64,000 nt of DNA, from NCBI RefSeq assembly GCF_000315445.1, contig NZ_JH992960.1:62001-126000 (forward strand). Direction: 5' to 3'. The position numbers were made by a program, and so were the translations under genes. This document shows positions 15,686 through 63,191 of the stretch, in pieces; position 1 is the first letter of the stretch; every line of letters starts with the position of its first letter. The DNA is from Alloiococcus otitis ATCC 51267 (GTDB taxonomy: Bacteria; Bacillota; Bacilli; Lactobacillales; Carnobacteriaceae_A). A model generated the notes under the pieces. The model was given only the letters and a program-made list of their open reading frames with translations. It made no database searches and had not been told where the DNA came from.

Positions 15686-17236
15686 TTAAAAGGCAATAGG
15701 TGCATTTGGACCAAGTGGGAGACCCAAGAGGTACCAGATGATCAAGAGGATGGTCCAGGTGATTAAGAAGGTAATCGAGTAGATCAACATGGTTGAAATT
15801 AGGGTTCCAATCCCCGAGTCCTTGTCATAGCGTTGGGTGAAGACAATCACCATAGCAAAGTAGTTCATCAGTGGTGAAATAATATTGGTGGTAGAGTCGG
15901 CAATCCGGTAGGCCATCAAGGTCATCTCAGGGGTTAAGTTTAGGTTATAGAACATTGGTGTGAAGATGGGGGATAGGATAGCCCATTTGGCTGAAGCTGA
16001 ACCGATGAAGAGGTTGATAAAGGCAGCCACCAAGACAAAACCTAAGATGAGGGGGATACCAGTTAGAGAAATGGATTCAAGAAAGTTAGCTCCGGCAACA
16101 GCAATAATGGTCCCTAAGTTGGTGTAGTTAAAGTAATTAATCAGTTGGGCCGCAAAGAAAGCTAAGACAATGTAAGCCCCCATGGAGCTCATGGCTTCAG
16201 ACATGCCTGTTACCCAGTCTTTGGTATCTTTAATCTTGTTAATGGTTACACCGTAAACGGTACCTGGTATGGCAAAGAGGAAGAAGATAGCCAAGAGCAA
16301 ACCAGCTGACATGAAGTTGTTCAAGTTGACTGCTTCAGCAGTTTCGTCAAAGGATTGGAGGATTCCACTGAAAGGGAGGTTGAAGTCAAACATGAGGTAA
16401 ACCATGACGATTGCGTAAATGATCAGAGCAATCAAGGCATTGCGCAGGCCTCGGTGTTCAAGGTCGGTCAAGGGCTCTTGGTCTGGGACAAACTCCCCAT
16501 TGTATTCACCTAATTTGGGTTCCACAAACTTGTCTGTCACGATGGCCCCCACGATGGTCAAAACGAAAGAGGAAGCAATGATGAAGTACCAGTTAGCAGT
16601 TACTTGAATATCGTATGTAATATTCGCTGCATCCAAGGCTTCTTCAGTAATCCCAACCAAGAGGGCATCAGTTGGACCGGGCAATAAGTTGGCAGAGAAA
16701 CCAGCTGAAACTCCAGCGAAGGCAGCAGCTAAACCGGCAATGGGGTGGCGGCCAGCTCCGGCAAAAATAACAGCACCTAGAGGGATGATAACAACGTAAC
16801 CGACATCTGAGGCAATGTTAGAGATGACCCCGGCAAAGACCACAGCAGCTGACAAGAGGAAGGGAGGGACATCGGAGAGCAAGTTCTTCAAGGTTGAGGA
16901 AATCAGACCGGTCCATTCTGCAATCCCGACCCCTAACATAGCCACCAGTACTGTTCCCAGTGGAGCGAAGGAAGTGAAGTTTTCCACGGCGCTGTTAAAG
17001 ATATAGTTAATCCCATCCACACTTAGGAGGGATTCAGCAGCCACGGTCACTTCTTCACCAGTTGGGTCGGTATAGTCTAGGGCGAGTCCAGATAAGTCAG
17101 CAATACCTGAAGCAAGGATGACGATAGCCGCCAAGATGATAAAAATAAAAACAGGGTGGGGGAGCTTGTTCCCGACCCGCTCAATCCAGGCGAAGAAACC
17201 AGAATTTTGCTGCTGGTTAGCAGTATTTTGATCCAT
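15686..17236 (-). CDS. AbgT family transporter
   Basis: 516 residues, about 12 membrane segments. The N-terminus WIERVGNKLPHPVFIFIILA and the GSASAKWAILSPIFTPMFY block are typical of AbgT, whose members import p-aminobenzoyl-glutamate or export sulfonamides. The ATG at 17236 has GGAAAGGA at 10 nt; a TTG nine bases upstream is possible. It follows the MBL-fold hydrolase gene by 51 nt in the same direction, so they probably form one transcript. Substrate not evident. Confidence 0.9.
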   Translation of the reverse strand: MDQNTANQQQNSGFFAWIERVGNKLPHPVFIFIILAAIVILASGIADLSGLALDYTDPTGEEVTVAAESLLSVDGINYIFNSAVENFTSFAPLGTVLVAMLGVGIAEWTGLISSTLKNLLSDVPPFLLSAAVVFAGVISNIASDVGYVVIIPLGAVIFAGAGRHPIAGLAAAFAGVSAGFSANLLPGPTDALLVGITEEALDAANITYDIQVTANWYFIIASSFVLTIVGAIVTDKFVEPKLGEYNGEFVPDQEPLTDLEHRGLRNALIALIIYAIVMVYLMFDFNLPFSGILQSFDETAEAVNLNNFMSAGLLLAIFFLFAIPGTVYGVTINKIKDTKDWVTGMSEAMSSMGAYIVLAFFAAQLINYFNYTNLGTIIAVAGANFLESISLTGIPLILGFVLVAAFINLFIGSASAKWAILSPIFTPMFYNLNLTPEMTLMAYRIADSTTNIISPLMNYFAMVIVFTQRYDKDSGIGTLISTMLIYSITFLITWTILLIIWYLLGLPLGPNAPIAF

Positions 17237-17287
17237 TTTGATCAAATCCTTTCCAAGAATGATAGTCTATTTTTTTACAGTTGGGAA

Positions 17288-17905
17288 TTAGAAAAATGGG
17301 TTGTAGCTTTTCTCATGGCCAATACTTGTAGCCTGACCATGGCCTGGGTAAACAGTAAAGTCATCGTCTAGGCTAAGGAGTTTGGTCTGGATACTGTCCA
17401 GCAAGGTTGGGCCATCAGCATTAAAGGAATCAGTCCGGCCGATACTTTCCCTGAAGAGGGCGTCGCCAGCGATAACTTGTTTGTCAGATTGGAAAATAAA
17501 GGAAACAGACCCAGGAGAGTGGCCGGGAGTGTGGACTACTTTAAAGTCAAAGGGTCCTATCTCTAACTCAACTTCCTCTGTAAACAAGTGGTCGGCAGGC
17601 TGGCAGGTAAAGGGCTGCCCCGTCATGCTAGAAAAGTTTAGGTCAGGGTCAAGTAGGTAGTCCTTTTCGATTTCATGGATGCTGGCCGGGATATGGTAAT
17701 AGTCCCTAACCTGGTCCAAGGCTCCAATATGGTCAAAGTGGGCGTGGGTCAGGAGGATGTGAAGAGGCTTTAAGTTCAGGTCTTCAATTTTATGAATGAT
17801 CCGCTCCCCGTCCGAACCCGGGTCAACCACCAGGGCCTGGCCATCTTTTTCCAGAATGTAACAGTTTTCCTGGACAGGCCCGGTGATGAGTTTGTGAATT
17901 TTCAT
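17288..17905 (-). CDS. MBL-fold hydrolase, YqgX / glyoxalase II-like
   Basis: 205 residues with the full metallo-beta-lactamase metal signature: LTHAHFDHIG (HxHxDH), the HTPGHSPGS histidine, the GDALF aspartate and the final YPGHGQAT histidine. The size and start (MKIHKLITGPVQENCYIL) match the YqgX/YcbL group of glyoxalase II-like hydrolases. The ATG at 17905 has AAGGGAGTG upstream; an in-frame GTG overlaps that site. It is upstream of the AbgT gene in a probable operon. Confidence 0.88.
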   Translation of the reverse strand: MKIHKLITGPVQENCYILEKDGQALVVDPGSDGERIIHKIEDLNLKPLHILLTHAHFDHIGALDQVRDYYHIPASIHEIEKDYLLDPDLNFSSMTGQPFTCQPADHLFTEEVELEIGPFDFKVVHTPGHSPGSVSFIFQSDKQVIAGDALFRESIGRTDSFNADGPTLLDSIQTKLLSLDDDFTVYPGHGQATSIGHEKSYNPFF

Positions 17906-55913: not shown

Positions 55914-56190
55914 ATAGTGATGCTTTTCCACTGGCCAGGGTTATTTTTGGACACCTAAGACTATGAATGTTCCAACTTTGGATTCTTCATTGCCAGACAG
56001 GATCATTTTTTGTTTAAAGAATAATACAAGAATGTATAGCTTATGTTAAGAGTGATAGCTTTTCGTAAAAAGTGTGTTACTATATGGTTGATTAAACTAA
56101 TCATTAACCAAGTTATGCTTAGGCTGAGTTGGGATTGGCCTGACCCAGACTGGTTAATGTAAAAGTTAGAGGACAAGGAAGGGATATATG

Positions 56191-56904
56191 ATGAAGAAAG
56201 TTTTAATAATTGAAGATGAAAGCTCAATTGCTAAACTCTTAAGTTACAATATTGAGCAGGAAGGCTTTGCAACGGAAACCGCCCTAGATGGTCGGGAAGG
56301 CTACCAACTAGCCTTAGCCAATGATTTCGACATGATTATCTTGGACTTGATGCTCCCATCCATGGATGGGATTGATGTTTGCCGGCAGTTGCGTGGGGAG
56401 AAGGTTGACACACCCATTATCATGCTGACAGCCAAAGATTCGGAAGTGGATAAAATAATAGGCTTGGAGATCGGGGCTGATGACTATATGACCAAGCCCT
56501 TTAGTCCCAGAGAAGTCATTGCCCGGATGAAGGCTGTCTTTAGACGGTATGACAAGGCAGTTGAATCTGACAATACCACTAGCCAGGTCTCTGCTAATAA
56601 ACTGATTACAGTCGGGGATATTGAGATTAACCCGGTCGAATTTAAGGTTCGGGTTAAAGGCCAAGAAATCCTCCTAACCCCTAAAGAATTTGACCTCCTA
56701 CTTTACCTAGCCAAACGTCAAAGCCGGATTTTAAGCCGGGAGCAACTCCTTAATGCTATTTGGAATTACGATTTTACAGGGGAAACTCGGATTGTCGATG
56801 TTCACATTAGCCACCTCCGTGAAAAAATAGAGGAAGATACCAAAAATCCCCAATACATTAAAACGGCTAGAGGCTTTGGCTACAAATTCGAGGCCCCTAG
56901 ATGA
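56191..56904 (+). CDS. phoP: Phosphate response regulator PhoP
   Basis: OmpR-type regulator, about 237 residues. Receiver domain with the phosphorylated Asp in DMIILDLMLPSMDG and the switch Lys in DDYMTKPFSP; winged-helix C-terminus with LTPKEFDLLLYLAKRQSRIL and VDVHISHLREKIE. Of two adjacent ATGs, 56191 has better spacing (7 nt) from AAGGAAGGG. Four-base overlap with phoR. The pst genes directly downstream, behind Pho boxes, support PhoP over WalR. Confidence 0.9.
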   Translation: MKKVLIIEDESSIAKLLSYNIEQEGFATETALDGREGYQLALANDFDMIILDLMLPSMDGIDVCRQLRGEKVDTPIIMLTAKDSEVDKIIGLEIGADDYMTKPFSPREVIARMKAVFRRYDKAVESDNTTSQVSANKLITVGDIEINPVEFKVRVKGQEILLTPKEFDLLLYLAKRQSRILSREQLLNAIWNYDFTGETRIVDVHISHLREKIEEDTKNPQYIKTARGFGYKFEAPR

Positions 56905-58709
56905 AACAGTTAAGAAAAAGAATGGTGGGCTACTTTGTCCTGGTTAACACCATCTTGTCCATTGCTCTCTTGGTTTCCTTTGCCTTTTTGGCTCACCGGC
57001 AGTTTACCAACCAACAAGAAGAGATGATCCAGGGTCAAATGCAGGTCCTAGTTGATAGCATTGACCGGAACCCAACTGCCAAAGAGTCGGAGAGGGACTT
57101 ACAAGACCAGATTGAAGCAGTGTCGGACTACTTTCAGGAGCGTATATCCCTGATGGATGCAGATGGCCAGGTCCTCTTTGATACAGAGGTCGATGAAAAC
57201 CAGGCCGAAAACCATGCTAATCGGGAAGAATTTATGGAGGCTGTCCAGTCCGGCCAAATTGAAACGGCAAGCCGGCAAAGCATGTCCACCGACCAGTCCA
57301 TGTACTATGCCGCTCAAGCAATCACGGACCAAGAGGGTAACTTGCTGGGAGTTGTTCGGATATCCAATACCGTCGATAACTTAAACCAAATTGTGGTTTT
57401 CCTATCTAGTTTACTAGCCATTTCCTTATTGATCCTTATTTTGATTACTATCTTTATGACCTATTATTGGACCAACAAGATTGGCAAGCCCATTGATGAA
57501 ATCAAGTCTGTCACCCATGAATTAGCCAATAAGAATTACGAGGCCCGCTACACCTTGTCTTCTTATTCCGATATCAACGAATTAGGGGACTCCATCAATG
57601 ACCTAGCCGAAAACCTTAAAGCCCAGTTCAATGCCATCAAGCACAATGACCAGCAACTGACCAAACTGTTAGAAAACTTAGTGGTCGGGGTCATCTTGAT
57701 TAATGAAAATCGGGAAATTACGGTTTGCAACCCCATGGCCAATGAAATTTTAGGGGTCAATATTTATGGCAATATTGGCCGGGTCTACAGTGATATTATC
57801 CATAGTTCGGATATTATCCAATTGGTGGAGAAGGCTATCCGGAAAAATAGGGCCCAAAATAAAGAAATTATCCTTTACTTACAAAACGAAAAAACACTAG
57901 ACGTAAATGTTGTCCCGATTAGGGAAGAAGAAGAAAAGAATGATTATGTCCTTCTCTTTTACGATATTACTGAAATCAAACGACTAGAACAGGTTCGGAC
58001 TGACTTTGTAGCTAATGCCTCTCATGAACTCCGGACCCCTATTACGGCTTTAAAAGGATTCAGTGAGACCCTACTGGACGGGGCTATGGAGGATAGAGAT
58101 CTTTTAGTCGAATTTCTAGAGATTATGCTCAAAGAATCTACTCGTTTGGATTCCATGGTCCAAGATATTTTGCAATTATCCCGGCTAGAGCAAAGACCAA
58201 GCCAGCAAGGGGTGAGTCCAGTTGCCGTCGACCAGGTTATTGCCGATGTCATGCAGGTTTTACAGCAAAAAGCTGAAAGTAAGCAGATTAGCTTGAACCT
58301 ACATGTCAAAGACAAGGTTCAAGTTTTAGTCAACCAAGACGAGCTGAAGCAGGTGGCGATGAACTTGATTGGCAATGCTATTACCTATACCCCAGAACAA
58401 GGTCATGTGGAAACAGAAATTTATCAAGAAAACAATGAGGCTGTTATTAAAATAGCGGATGATGGGATTGGTATTCCAGAGAAAGACCAGGCTAGGATAT
58501 TTGAGCGCTTCTACCGGGTGGACAAGGCAAGAAGCCGAAATGCTGGTGGGACAGGTCTAGGTCTATCCATTGTTAAATGGCTAGTCGAGGGTATGGAAGG
58601 CCGGATCCAAGTGGAAAGTCAACTAGGCCAAGGGTCAGCCTTCTACCTTTACCTCCCCTTTTACCAAGATGAGAAAGACCCGGACATGTCAGGCATCAAA
58701 CTAAGCTAG
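56901..58709 (+). CDS. phoR: Phosphate sensor histidine kinase PhoR
   Basis: 602 residues: a membrane helix (about 8-30), an extracellular sensor loop, a second helix (about 163-188), HAMP, PAS (LLENLVVGVILINENREITV), HisKA with the phospho-His in NASHELRTPITALKGFSETL, and HATPase with NAITYTPEQG, DDGIGIPEKDQ and GGTGLGLSIVKW. It phosphorylates PhoP. Confidence 0.92.
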   Translation: MKQLRKRMVGYFVLVNTILSIALLVSFAFLAHRQFTNQQEEMIQGQMQVLVDSIDRNPTAKESERDLQDQIEAVSDYFQERISLMDADGQVLFDTEVDENQAENHANREEFMEAVQSGQIETASRQSMSTDQSMYYAAQAITDQEGNLLGVVRISNTVDNLNQIVVFLSSLLAISLLILILITIFMTYYWTNKIGKPIDEIKSVTHELANKNYEARYTLSSYSDINELGDSINDLAENLKAQFNAIKHNDQQLTKLLENLVVGVILINENREITVCNPMANEILGVNIYGNIGRVYSDIIHSSDIIQLVEKAIRKNRAQNKEIILYLQNEKTLDVNVVPIREEEEKNDYVLLFYDITEIKRLEQVRTDFVANASHELRTPITALKGFSETLLDGAMEDRDLLVEFLEIMLKESTRLDSMVQDILQLSRLEQRPSQQGVSPVAVDQVIADVMQVLQQKAESKQISLNLHVKDKVQVLVNQDELKQVAMNLIGNAITYTPEQGHVETEIYQENNEAVIKIADDGIGIPEKDQARIFERFYRVDKARSRNAGGTGLGLSIVKWLVEGMEGRIQVESQLGQGSAFYLYLPFYQDEKDPDMSGIKLS

Positions 58710-58718
58710 TCATTAAAA

Positions 58719-58756
58719 TTTACATTATCTTTACATTCCTTTACACAGTCTATACA
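58719..58756 (+). promoter_or_regulatory. Four-repeat Pho box upstream of pstS
   Basis: TTTACA at 58719, 58730 and 58740 and TATACA at 58751 give direct repeats every 10-11 bp, matching the PhoP consensus TTHACA-N5-TTHACA. TATTAT at about 58789 could be the -10. This links the pst operon to the PhoPR pair just upstream. Confidence 0.85.
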
Positions 58757-58850
58757 CTAACTTGATTTACTATCAACAATTCTTCAGTATTATAGGGAGT
58801 AAGGACAGAATGGTCCATCAAAATTCAATTTTGAAGGAGAGTTATGACGT

Positions 58851-59864
58851 ATGACTTTGAAAAAAGCAACAAAATGGATGTCAGTACTCAGTGTTTCGCT
58901 AATTTTAGCGGCATGTGACCAAGAAGCGCAAGACGAAGCGCAAGACGACCAAACTGAAGAAGCTGCTCCTGCTGACGACGCTGGCGAAGAATCTAGTGAC
59001 GACCAAGCAGGTGAAGAAGAAGGCGGCGACGAAGAAGCTGATGGTGAAGAAGAAGCTGGCGACCAAGCAGCCGGTGACTTTGACTACTCAAGCACACTTA
59101 ACGCTTCAACTCGTGAAGATGGGTCCGGTACTCGTTCAGCCTTTGTTGAAATCGTTGGACTAGAAGATGAAGATGGTAATGACCAAATTGACCAATCCAT
59201 CACAGTCCAAGATGGTACGAACGCTGTCATCACCGGTGTACAAGAAGACCTTTACGCTCTTGGCTACGTTTCCGTTGGTGCTATTCAAGGTAACGACGAC
59301 GTGAAGGCCTTACAAGTTGAAGGAGTTGAACCAACTCCAGAAAACATCAAAGCTGGTGACTACGAAATTGCTCGTGACTTCAACCTTGTATACGGAGAAG
59401 ATCTTTCCGAACAAGCACAAGACTTCCTAGACTTTGTATTATCTGCTGAAGGACAAGCAGTTGTTGAGGAAAACGGTGAAGTTCCTGTGGACGATGGAGC
59501 AGAAGAATTTACTGGTGGCGACGTTTCAGGTGAAGTTCAAATTAACGGATCAACCTCTGTTACACCTCTAATTGAAAAATTAACTGAAGAATACAATGCT
59601 GTGAACCCTGATGTTACTTTTGACATTGCTTCTACTGGTTCAAGCGCTGGTGTTACAGCTGCTATTGACGGTACTGCTGATATTGGTATGTCTTCTCGTG
59701 ACATTACTGAAGAAGAAGAAGCTGACCTTGGTGGCGTAGAATCCATTGCCATTGACGGTATTGCTGTCATTGTAAACCCAGAAAACCCAGTTGATGACAT
59801 TACAATTGACCAGTTGCAGTCAATTTACCTTAACGAAACCACAACTTGGGAAGAATTTGAATAA
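58851..59864 (+). CDS. pstS: Phosphate-binding lipoprotein PstS, halves in permuted order
   Basis: 337 residues. Lipobox LAAC near residue 22, then about 50 residues that are mostly Asp, Glu, Ala and Gly. The domain order is unusual: the part that is normally C-terminal comes first (STREDGSGTRSAFVEIVGL, VEGVEPTPENIKAGDYEIAR, about 83-210). The part that is normally N-terminal comes second (INGSTSVTPLIEKLTEEYN, DIASTGSSAGVTAAIDGTAD, about 225-335), ending at TTWEEFE, the very place where standard PstS runs on into the first part. All phosphate-binding stretches are present. RBS AGGAG is 11 nt before the ATG. Confidence 0.93.
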   Translation: MTLKKATKWMSVLSVSLILAACDQEAQDEAQDDQTEEAAPADDAGEESSDDQAGEEEGGDEEADGEEEAGDQAAGDFDYSSTLNASTREDGSGTRSAFVEIVGLEDEDGNDQIDQSITVQDGTNAVITGVQEDLYALGYVSVGAIQGNDDVKALQVEGVEPTPENIKAGDYEIARDFNLVYGEDLSEQAQDFLDFVLSAEGQAVVEENGEVPVDDGAEEFTGGDVSGEVQINGSTSVTPLIEKLTEEYNAVNPDVTFDIASTGSSAGVTAAIDGTADIGMSSRDITEEEEADLGGVESIAIDGIAVIVNPENPVDDITIDQLQSIYLNETTTWEEFE

Positions 59865-59897: not shown

Positions 59898-59931
59898 AAA
59901 AGGGCTTGGATGGAAACTTCAAGCCCCTTTT
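59898..59931 (+). terminator. Attenuating terminator between pstS and pstC
   Basis: AAAAGGGCTTG (59898-59908) pairs with CAAGCCCCTTTT (59920-59931). Partial termination here would make more binding protein than permease. Confidence 0.8.
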
Positions 59932-59979: not shown

Positions 59980-60840
59980 ATGAATAAGCCAGGTGAAAAG
60001 GTCATGCAAGGCGTTTTCCTTGTGTCTGCATTGATGTCCATCATTGCTTTATTGACTATTATTTACTTTATTTTTGCCAACGGGCTTCCGATTATGTTCC
60101 GTTATGGTTTTTTTGACTTTATTTTTGGGACCGAATGGCGTCCGTCGAATAATCCACCCATGTATGGTCTCTTACCGATGATAACAGGTTCCATTTTTGC
60201 TACTCTTGGAGCGGCTATCTTGGGTGTCCCAGTTGGTGTTTTAACCGCCATCTTTATGGCAGAGTTTTGCCCAGACTGGCTTTACAAGGTCTTGAAACCG
60301 GCTGTTACCCTGATGGCCTCCATTCCATCCATTGTCATGGGTTTCTTTGCCTTGAGACTATTGGTCCCAGCTGTCCGGGAAAACTTCGGCGGAAATGGTT
60401 ACAGCATGTTGTCAGCCATTTTAATTCTTTCCATTATGATTTTACCTACCATCATTGAACTGTCCGAATCTGCCTTGAAGACTGTTCCACGTACTTACTA
60501 TTCAGCCTCCATTGCCATGGGGGCTTCTCATGAACGGTCGGTTATGAACGTCCTCGTACCTGCAGCCAAATCAGGTGTCTTGTCCTCTGTCGTCTTGGGT
60601 ATTGGCCGGGCAATCGGTGAAACCATGGCCGTTGTTCTTGTAGCTGGAAACCAACCGATTATGCCAGGTGGCTTACTGCAAGGGATGAGAACCTTGACCA
60701 TTAATATTGTCTTGGAGATGGGCTACGCTACAGGAGAGCACCGGGAAGCCTTGATTGCGACAGCAGTTGTCTTGTTTGTCTTTATCTTCATTATCAATGG
60801 TAGCTTCCTCGTCATTAAGAATAAGGGGGATAATCAATAA
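59980..60840 (+). CDS. pstC: Phosphate ABC transporter permease PstC
   Basis: 286 residues, six membrane helices. GTEWRPSNNPPMYGLLPMI, ASIPSIVMGFFALRLLVP and the EAA loop MGASHERSVMNVLVPAAKSG with GRAIGETMAVVLVAGN. Last codon overlaps the pstA start. Confidence 0.95.
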   Translation: MNKPGEKVMQGVFLVSALMSIIALLTIIYFIFANGLPIMFRYGFFDFIFGTEWRPSNNPPMYGLLPMITGSIFATLGAAILGVPVGVLTAIFMAEFCPDWLYKVLKPAVTLMASIPSIVMGFFALRLLVPAVRENFGGNGYSMLSAILILSIMILPTIIELSESALKTVPRTYYSASIAMGASHERSVMNVLVPAAKSGVLSSVVLGIGRAIGETMAVVLVAGNQPIMPGGLLQGMRTLTINIVLEMGYATGEHREALIATAVVLFVFIFIINGSFLVIKNKGDNQ

Positions 60841-61658
60841 TGCAATCCAAACATGTGATTCGTGGAATTGTCTACTTAGCTGCACTTATTACCTTTGGTG
60901 TTCTGCTTTACATCATCGGTTTTATCTTAATTAATGGTATACCTGCTCTAAATTTGGACATGTTTAGACTGAACTATACCACTGAGAACGTGTCTATGAT
61001 GCCTGCCATTATTACAACCTTGTATACTGTTATCGGTACACTGGGTATCGCAACCCCAATTGGTGTCTTTACAGGATTTTACTTAGTTGAATATGCCGAC
61101 CGGTCCAACCCTATTGTCAAATTGATTAGTATGGCAACTGACATGCTGGCGGCCGTCCCATCCATTGTCTACGGTCTTTTTGGTTTCTTGTTCTTCGTCA
61201 CCTTCCTCGGCCTCTCTTTCTCTATTTCTTCTGGTATCTTAACGGTTACCATTATGATCTTGCCTTTGATTATCCGAGCAACTGAAGAAGCCCTCATGGG
61301 TGTTCCAAGAGGACTTCGTGAAGCAAGTTATGGTTTGGGGGCTGGTAAGTTAAGAACCATCTTTACTGTTGTTCTACCAGTGGCCATGCCAGGGATCCTA
61401 TCTGGTGTCATCTTGGCCATGGGTCGGGTGGTCGGTGAATCAGCTGCCTTGATTTACACCCTAGGGTCTTCAACCAACATTCCAACCAGTTTGACCAGTT
61501 CAGGCCGGACCATGGCTGTCCACATGTATGTCCTATCCAGTGAAGGCCAGTATGTTAATGAAGCTTATGCAACCGCCGTTGTCCTCTTTATCCTCGTCTT
61601 AATCTTAAACGGTCTATCAACCTTAGTCAGTAATAAATTAGCTACGGGAGGCAAATAA
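60840..61658 (+). CDS. pstA: Phosphate ABC transporter permease PstA
   Basis: 272 residues, six membrane helices. [37 protein letters not shown] and the EAA loop [20 protein letters not shown] with [15 protein letters not shown]. Overlaps pstB by one base. Confidence 0.95.
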
Positions 61659-62422
61659 TGTCTGAAAAAAATATTAAAATGCAAGTTGAAAACATGGATT
61701 TGTACTACGGTGATTTCCAAGCCTTGCACTCAGTGGATTTAGATGTTTACGAAAACGAAGTAACTGCTTTTATTGGCCCGTCTGGTTGTGGGAAATCAAC
61801 CCTCATTAAGTCCTTGAACCGGATGAACGACCTAGTTCCAGACTGCCGCATCGAAGGGGATATCCGCTTAGACGGCAAGGATATCTATGCTAAGGGGATT
61901 GACCTGACTGAACTCCGGAAGCAAGTTGGGATGGTCTTCCAACACCCTAACCCCTTCCCTAAAAGTATCTATGACAACATTGCTTATGGTCCAAGAACCC
62001 ACGGCATTAAAGACAAGTCTAAATTAGATGAAATTGTCGAAACTTCTTTGAAGCAAGCGGCCATTTGGGACGAGGTCAAAGACCACTTAGACCGAAACGC
62101 TCTTTCCATTTCTGGTGGTCAGCAACAACGGATCTGTATTGCCCGTGCGATTGCCAATGAACCCGATGTCCTCTTGATGGACGAACCAACCAGTGCTTTG
62201 GACCCTATCTCTACTTCTAAAATTGAAGACCTAGTCGAAGAATTGAAAAGACAATACACTATTGTCATGGTTACTCACAATATGCAACAAGCCTCTCGTG
62301 TTTCTGACCGGACTGCCTTTTTCTACCAAGGCCGGATTATTGAGCAAGACGAAACTAAGACACTCTTTACCAATCCAAGTGAAGAAAGAACAGAAAATTA
62401 CATTTCCGGTCGATTTGGTTAA
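61658..62422 (+). CDS. pstB: Phosphate ABC transporter ATPase PstB
   Basis: 254 residues. Walker [21 protein letters not shown], the PstB-specific [36 protein letters not shown] and [14 protein letters not shown]. Confidence 0.97.
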
Positions 62423-62507: not shown

Positions 62508-63191
62508 ATGAGAGTTGCATTTGACAAAGAACTGAATGAGTTGAATCGATCTTTTTCACAATTGGGTAACCTAGTTAATGAAGCCATCTATAAATCAATT
62601 AAGGCCTTCATCAACCATGACAAGAAATTAGCCAAAGAAGTGATTGAAAACGATGACCGTGTCAACCAACTGGAAGTTGAACTAGAAGGGAAATGTATTG
62701 AGATTATCGCCCTCCAACAACCGGTGACCGCTGACTTGCGGACCATCATTACTATTTTGAAAGCATCAGCTGACTTGGAACGGATGGGCGACCACGCCGT
62801 TAATATTGCCAAAGCCACTATTCGGATTAAAGGATCCAAACGGTCTGAAGAAATTGAAGGTATGATTGCTGAAGCTGGCGAAAAAATTAAAGTTATGGGT
62901 CAAGATGTTCTTCAAGCCTTTGTAGAGATGGACACCAAGGCAGCCCTTCACTTTGATGAACGCGACGATGAAATCGATGAGATAACAGATAACCTGAAGC
63001 GAAAAAGTGTCAAACGGGTCGTGGATGATCCTGAACTAGCATTCGGAGCGACCGACTACACCCTAGTTGGTTCATCCATTGAGCGGATTGGTGACTACAT
63101 CACCAATATTGCTGAGTGGATTGTTTACCACGAAACCGGTAAAATCAAGGAATTAAATATCAGCCATGACTATGAAAATTTTGAAGAGTAA
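62508..63191 (+). CDS. phoU: Phosphate uptake regulator PhoU
   Basis: 227 residues, all helical, two repeated three-helix bundles with metal-binding acidic sites (ADLERMGDHAVNIAKA and GSSIERIGDYITNIAEW). It links Pst transport state to PhoR. RBS AGAGGG. Last gene of the pst block. Confidence 0.95.
   Translation: MRVAFDKELNELNRSFSQLGNLVNEAIYKSIKAFINHDKKLAKEVIENDDRVNQLEVELEGKCIEIIALQQPVTADLRTIITILKASADLERMGDHAVNIAKATIRIKGSKRSEEIEGMIAEAGEKIKVMGQDVLQAFVEMDTKAALHFDERDDEIDEITDNLKRKSVKRVVDDPELAFGATDYTLVGSSIERIGDYITNIAEWIVYHETGKIKELNISHDYENFEE

Follow-up and report, generated by a model that had tools for sequence, protein, structure and literature searches.

The 64,000-nucleotide stretch of Alloiococcus otitis ATCC 51267 analyzed here (the window) contains a phosphate-import locus with the gene order phoP-phoR(pnpS)-pstS-pstC-pstA-pstB-phoU (Table 1). 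The pstS open reading frame begins with the ATG at 58851, ends with the stop codon at 59862-59864, and encodes a product of 337 amino acids; a profile scan of the A. otitis genome found no second PstS. The direct repeats upstream of pstS agree with the Gram-positive PhoP box consensus. Downstream of pstS, a stem-loop precedes pstC; it may act as a partial terminator and could raise pstS transcripts above those of the permease genes.

Table 1. Features of the pst locus and of the pstS product, in window coordinates.
Feature	Position	Strand	Basis
Response regulator, PhoP/PnpR type	56188..56904	+	profile
Sensor kinase, PnpS equivalog	56901..58709	+	NF046044, 485.6 bits vs. cut-off 400
Pho-box-like direct repeats: TTTACA 58719, TTTACA 58730, TTTACA 58740, TATACA 58751; 10-11 bp spacing	58719..58756	+	
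Likely ribosome binding site, AAGGAG	58834..58839	+	sequence
Lipoprotein signal peptide, residues 1-21, lipobox LAAC	58851..58913	+	sequence, relatives' alignment
C22, lipid-anchor cysteine	58914..58916	+	aligned in 14/15 relatives
Acidic tether, residues 23-76; 26 D/E of 54, zero K/R	58917..59078	+	
Canonical C-terminal half of PstS, placed first; TREDGSGTR to GEVPV	59079..59489	+	profiles, structures, alignment
Linker between old C- and N-termini, residues 214-225, DDGAEEFTGGDV	59490..59525	+	alignment
Canonical N-terminal half of PstS, placed last; SGEVQINGSTSV to TTWEEFE	59526..59861	+	profiles, structures, alignment
Terminator- or attenuator-like stem-loop and T-run in the pstS-pstC gap	59902..59926	+	z -4.1
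pstC	59980..60840	+	TIGR02138
pstA	60840..61658	+	TIGR00974
pstB	61658..62422	+	TIGR00972
phoU	62508..63191	+	TIGR02135

The earlier note on this DNA had placed an SGTR-containing half of PstS ahead of a GSTSVTP-containing half, with the protein ending at TTWEEFE, and these landmarks lie exactly there in the reading frame. Behind a tether that is unusually long compared with those of relatives (54 residues), the C-half starts with FDYSSTLNASTREDGSGTR and runs to GEVPV, and the N-half starts with SGEVQINGSTSVTP and ends at TTWEEFE. The conserved phosphate-site motifs (GSTSV, GSS/GSG, SR, and RExGSGT) are all present. By motif, the site residues are R88, S92, G93, and T94 in the C-half and T235, S236, S264/S265, and S282 in the N-half; in an alignment with 15 relatives, the invariant columns include R88, S92, G93, T94, T235, S236, S264, and R283. 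By eye, from their motifs, these invariant residues correspond to the E. coli PstS ligands Thr10, Phe11, Ser38, Arg135, Ser139, Gly140, and Thr141. E. coli PstS (TIGR00975/PRK10918) is likewise the phosphate-binding component of a PstSCAB importer but differs in its canonical order, in being free in the periplasm, and in its ligand Asp56, which by eye is Ser in the TIGR02136 group. Because the window PstS shares this Ser with standard-order members such as 4Q8R, the substitution is not due to permutation.

Profile searches agree on the swapped order. TIGR02136 and PF12849 each match the window PstS in two stretches, with the order reversed. The genome scan places the upstream stretch (59094-59486) on TIGR02136 positions 163-294 and the downstream stretch (59511-59864) on positions 33-157; the protein profile search matches residues 221-335 to positions 33-154. 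The TIGR02136 score of 179 bits falls below the curated cut-off of 206.6 bits, and five sampled permuted relatives score 182-211 bits, with one of the five above it. This cut-off presumes that the halves are collinear. The window PstS, which departs from the canonical N-to-C order of TIGR02136, is a permuted variant and not a collinear member.

Structural comparisons gave the same result. The sequences of the standard PstS structures 4Q8R, 4GD5, and 1TWY align to the window PstS in two swapped pieces; that of 4H1X (S. pneumoniae SP_2084) aligns in a single piece over residues 79-336 (E = 1.4e-59). An AlphaFold2 model of the window PstS, built from a 44-sequence alignment (mean pLDDT 96.5, pTM 0.89), matched 4H1X over 254 residues in one pass in a search of PDB structures (Z = 36.1, rmsd 1.1 Å). 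The next best hit was 1TWY (Z = 12.0, 137 residues), in which model residues 2..140 fall on chain residues 136..276; in 9L8J, model residues 150..264 fall on chain residues 2..117. Standard PstS structures align sequentially with the model over about half its length only, and the matching halves are offset. These offsets, with 4H1X matched whole and 1TWY and 9L8J by one half each, are the signature of a circular permutation. Structure prediction, which the earlier note had proposed as a check, returned a closed two-lobe type II fold, assigned through the model's match to 4H1X. Neither of the outcomes that the note had named as refuting its reading, an alignment in the usual order or a model lacking the closed fold, was observed. 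Sequence, structure model, and 4H1X together support a circular permutation and not a truncation, as had been argued from the sequence, and the halves are swapped in sequence and structure alignments alike.

The similar streptococcal PstS mentioned in the earlier note is real: it is SP_2084, which shares with the window PstS the permuted order from end to end, about 40% identity, and a PnpRS-pstSCAB-phoU context. S. pneumoniae possesses a second pst operon, whereas in A. otitis no PstS was found besides the permuted one. SP_2084-8 constitute the Pst1 importer, which is activated by PnpRS (PMC6722419), with PnpR~P acting at a Pho box (PMC4913102). Without pst1-phoU1, the initial uptake rate decreases about twofold when compared at low phosphate; in an unencapsulated strain lacking both pst systems, uptake is halved (PMC4913102). 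The names clash, in that SP_2084 is called PstS 2 in UniProt but belongs to the Pst1 system in the genetics literature. Through SP_2084, the permuted type is therefore linked to an importer whose role in phosphate uptake is supported by experiments.

How widespread is this order? Across 84,980 species genomes, a scan yielded at least 559 confirmed stretches. Among these matches, the best 80 named relatives were all permuted wherever the gene was readable; they belong mostly to Bacillota (Carnobacteriaceae, Aerococcaceae, Peptoniphilaceae, Tissierellia, Lachnospiraceae, and Oscillospiraceae), plus Coriobacteriia (such as Parvibacter, Adlercreutzia, and Paraeggerthella). Within Lactobacillales, 61 of 246 genomes carry a permuted match at E ≤ 1e-25, a threshold that standard PstS failed to reach with the window query (standard best 8.7e-20). 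The earlier suggestion that the order may be shared across Lactobacillales was right in that it is not unique to A. otitis, but too narrow, given Bacillota and Coriobacteriia, and too even, given the patchy occurrence. Among 149 genomes drawn phylum-wide, PstS was mostly standard: 94 of them had a match exceeding the TIGR02136 cut-off, whereas the swapped pair appeared in about seven when counted by eye. A phylum draw around Parvibacter gave matches in 4 of 149, the centre genome included. Of 26 named genomes inspected, most had the permuted gene as their sole PstS above E 1e-8, and the fetched loci hold 154 open reading frames (ORFs) with the swapped order, duplicates included.

The arrangement S-C-A-B-phoU is kept in nearly all complete relative loci, with phoPR before or after, and repeat pairs similar to those of the window precede 59 of 106 permuted pstS genes, where simple mononucleotide shuffling would give 0.3. 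Individual loci vary around this arrangement. In L118 (genome G219) and L119 (G208), the permuted pstS stands at the far end (pstC-A-B-phoU-pstS), and the search match is split in two by a wider gap between the halves, within open frames of 365 and 346 amino acids. Anaerococcus ihuae has a tandem pair of permuted pstS genes (L092:6001-7954), and a Hespellia MAG has a shortened second permuted copy upstream of its operon (L110:2320-2952). Permuted pstS genes without pstCAB nearby occur in L131 and, in two copies, in L120. One permuted PstS (L016:1402-2307, genome G013) has a TM-helix-like N-terminus without the lipobox cysteine. In L053, L115, L116, and L117, a permuted pst operon is directly followed by a standard-order one, providing natural pairs for comparison. 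Finally, contig C3 of genome G265 (16969-17769), the Intestinimonas genome of L085, contains a 741-residue open frame with a standard-order PstS-like domain, a possible fusion.

For phylogenetic trees, each protein was cut into halves and restored to canonical order. The permuted sequences formed one group, with 105 set against 51 standard sequences and then with 85 against 62 (FastTree 0.944), and the permuted clade received a UFBoot value of 97 in a subsample with 25 permuted sequences; the trees were rooted by a distant standard sequence, so supports at the relevant edges are approximate and deep nodes are weak. The N-half alone, with a larger standard set, did not keep the permuted sequences together. 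The PstC and PstA proteins adjoining permuted PstS also formed single groups (supports 0.991 and 0.977, respectively). The nearest standard relatives are clostridial PstS proteins of the L189 type, common in the phylum (TIGR02136; 4Q8R and 4GD5), which have homologous halves and the same ligand motifs. Unlike the window PstS, they run from N-half to C-half, retain the W..GG loop, and carry the tether elsewhere in the fold. We take the permuted order as derived because all other PstS seen had the standard order. Judged from these sequences, the permutation most simply arose once, in an intact clostridial-type pst operon.

The position of the cut is nearly fixed: in 139 of 143 cases, the C-terminal tail reaches 0-3 residues beyond the N-half. 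The chain of permuted proteins starts near I.V.SREDGSGTR and stops at about W.E., so that only the GGKDAP-like loop of the L189-type sister is missing. With duplicates counted, the W..GG motif occurs in 57 of 79 standard ORFs but in none of the 154 permuted ones. Some 12 residues bridge the old C-terminus (...IPVK) and the old first strand, LSGSITIAGSTSV. The permuted gene probably originated in a tandem duplication that was then trimmed on either side, the route raised in the earlier note, and the breakpoints fit this route. The fused N-C-N-C intermediate that it implies was absent from the ORFs of the fetched loci. Three long ORFs considered as such intermediates (L074, L093, and L102) merely had upstream start codons, and two apparent N-C-N patterns came from weak extra matches (6.7 and 8.1 bits) that disappeared at a threshold of 15 bits.

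The lack of a fused duplicate in these loci leaves some room for another route, either recombination within the operon or intragenic rearrangement, and the relocation of pstS to the opposite operon end in L118 and L119 indicates that operon shuffling does occur. Against this, the join keeps the standard order (old C-terminus, short spacer, and the xSGx[IV] first strand), a pattern expected after duplication and trimming, but this signal is weak because the same residues are also needed for the fold. We regard such a route as a plausible though less favored way of reaching the same protein.

Could the two halves instead derive from separate PstS genes that became joined end to end? Several relatives have two pst operons or tandem pstS genes that could supply the partners, but half-by-half trees place both halves with the same clostridial standard group, and we consider a chimera unlikely. 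A degenerate or non-transporting paralogue, for example a sensor or decoy, would be in keeping with the permuted copies that are orphaned from pstCAB (L120 and L131) or shortened (L110). The window gene, however, encodes the only PstS found in its genome and lies inside a full, Pho-boxed pst operon; its site residues are invariant, and its ortholog belongs to the pneumococcal Pst1 importer, making a paralogue of this kind quite improbable. A sequencing or assembly artefact is practically negligible, since the same order and breakpoint recur in the best 80 named loci (of at least 559 matches) and in the solved structure 4H1X.

We conclude, with a probability of roughly 0.92, that the window gene encodes a circularly permuted phosphate-binding lipoprotein serving a PhoPR-linked PstSCAB importer, with the permutation having arisen most simply once and probably by duplication and trimming. 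In this sequence of events, the first N-half and the second C-half would have been lost after pstS was duplicated in tandem, and the pst operon would have been inherited as a unit since the permutation. The chain runs from the strand before REDGSGTR through the old C-half, the 12-residue linker, and the old N-half, stopping before the W..GG loop. The predicted fold is the usual two-lobe type II binding protein, in which the usual residues would bind phosphate before it is passed to PstC/PstA.

In E. coli PstS, lobe I is built from both chain ends and lobe II from the middle. Given this topology, the cut falls within lobe II, so lobe I should become continuous and lobe II split, still with two hinge crossings. 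On the same topology, the lipid tether would enter lobe II instead of lobe I. Counted up to the first half, the tether has a median length of 20 residues in permuted lipoproteins vs. 14 in standard ones; this somewhat longer tether is suggestive only.

Permutation of a lipid-anchored ABC binding protein has a precedent in another family, TpMglB-2 (Tp0684) of Treponema pallidum, termed ‘Type Ic’, whose topology has relatives in many Gram-positive bacteria (PMC4990184). In contrast to permuted PstS, TpMglB-2 has a Type I sugar-binding fold, another breakpoint, and an extra hinge crossing (PMC4990184); it represents an independent event. We found no description of a permuted PstS in the open-access literature, and the text of the Pst1 genetics study does not mention permutation (PMC4913102). 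The permuted topology is visible in 4H1X, released in 2012.

Within its widespread clade, the window gene itself is unremarkable; what is notable is the clade, in which a textbook binding protein has undergone a clean, natural circular permutation that is most simply traced to one ancestor and has standard-order sisters available for comparison. The permutation accounts for the low scores that a collinear family model gives to a large group of PstS proteins. It also gives pneumococcal Pst1 a structural peculiarity absent from the published genetics examined (PMC6722419 and PMC4913102). Tentatively, we propose that a clade of PstSCAB importers in Bacillota and Coriobacteriia, pneumococcal Pst1 included, uses an undescribed permuted PstS in which the tether has moved from lobe I to lobe II, and that this might alter docking on, or delivery to, the co-diverged PstC/PstA. 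Permuted PstS can test how important tether position and lobe continuity are for an ABC importer.
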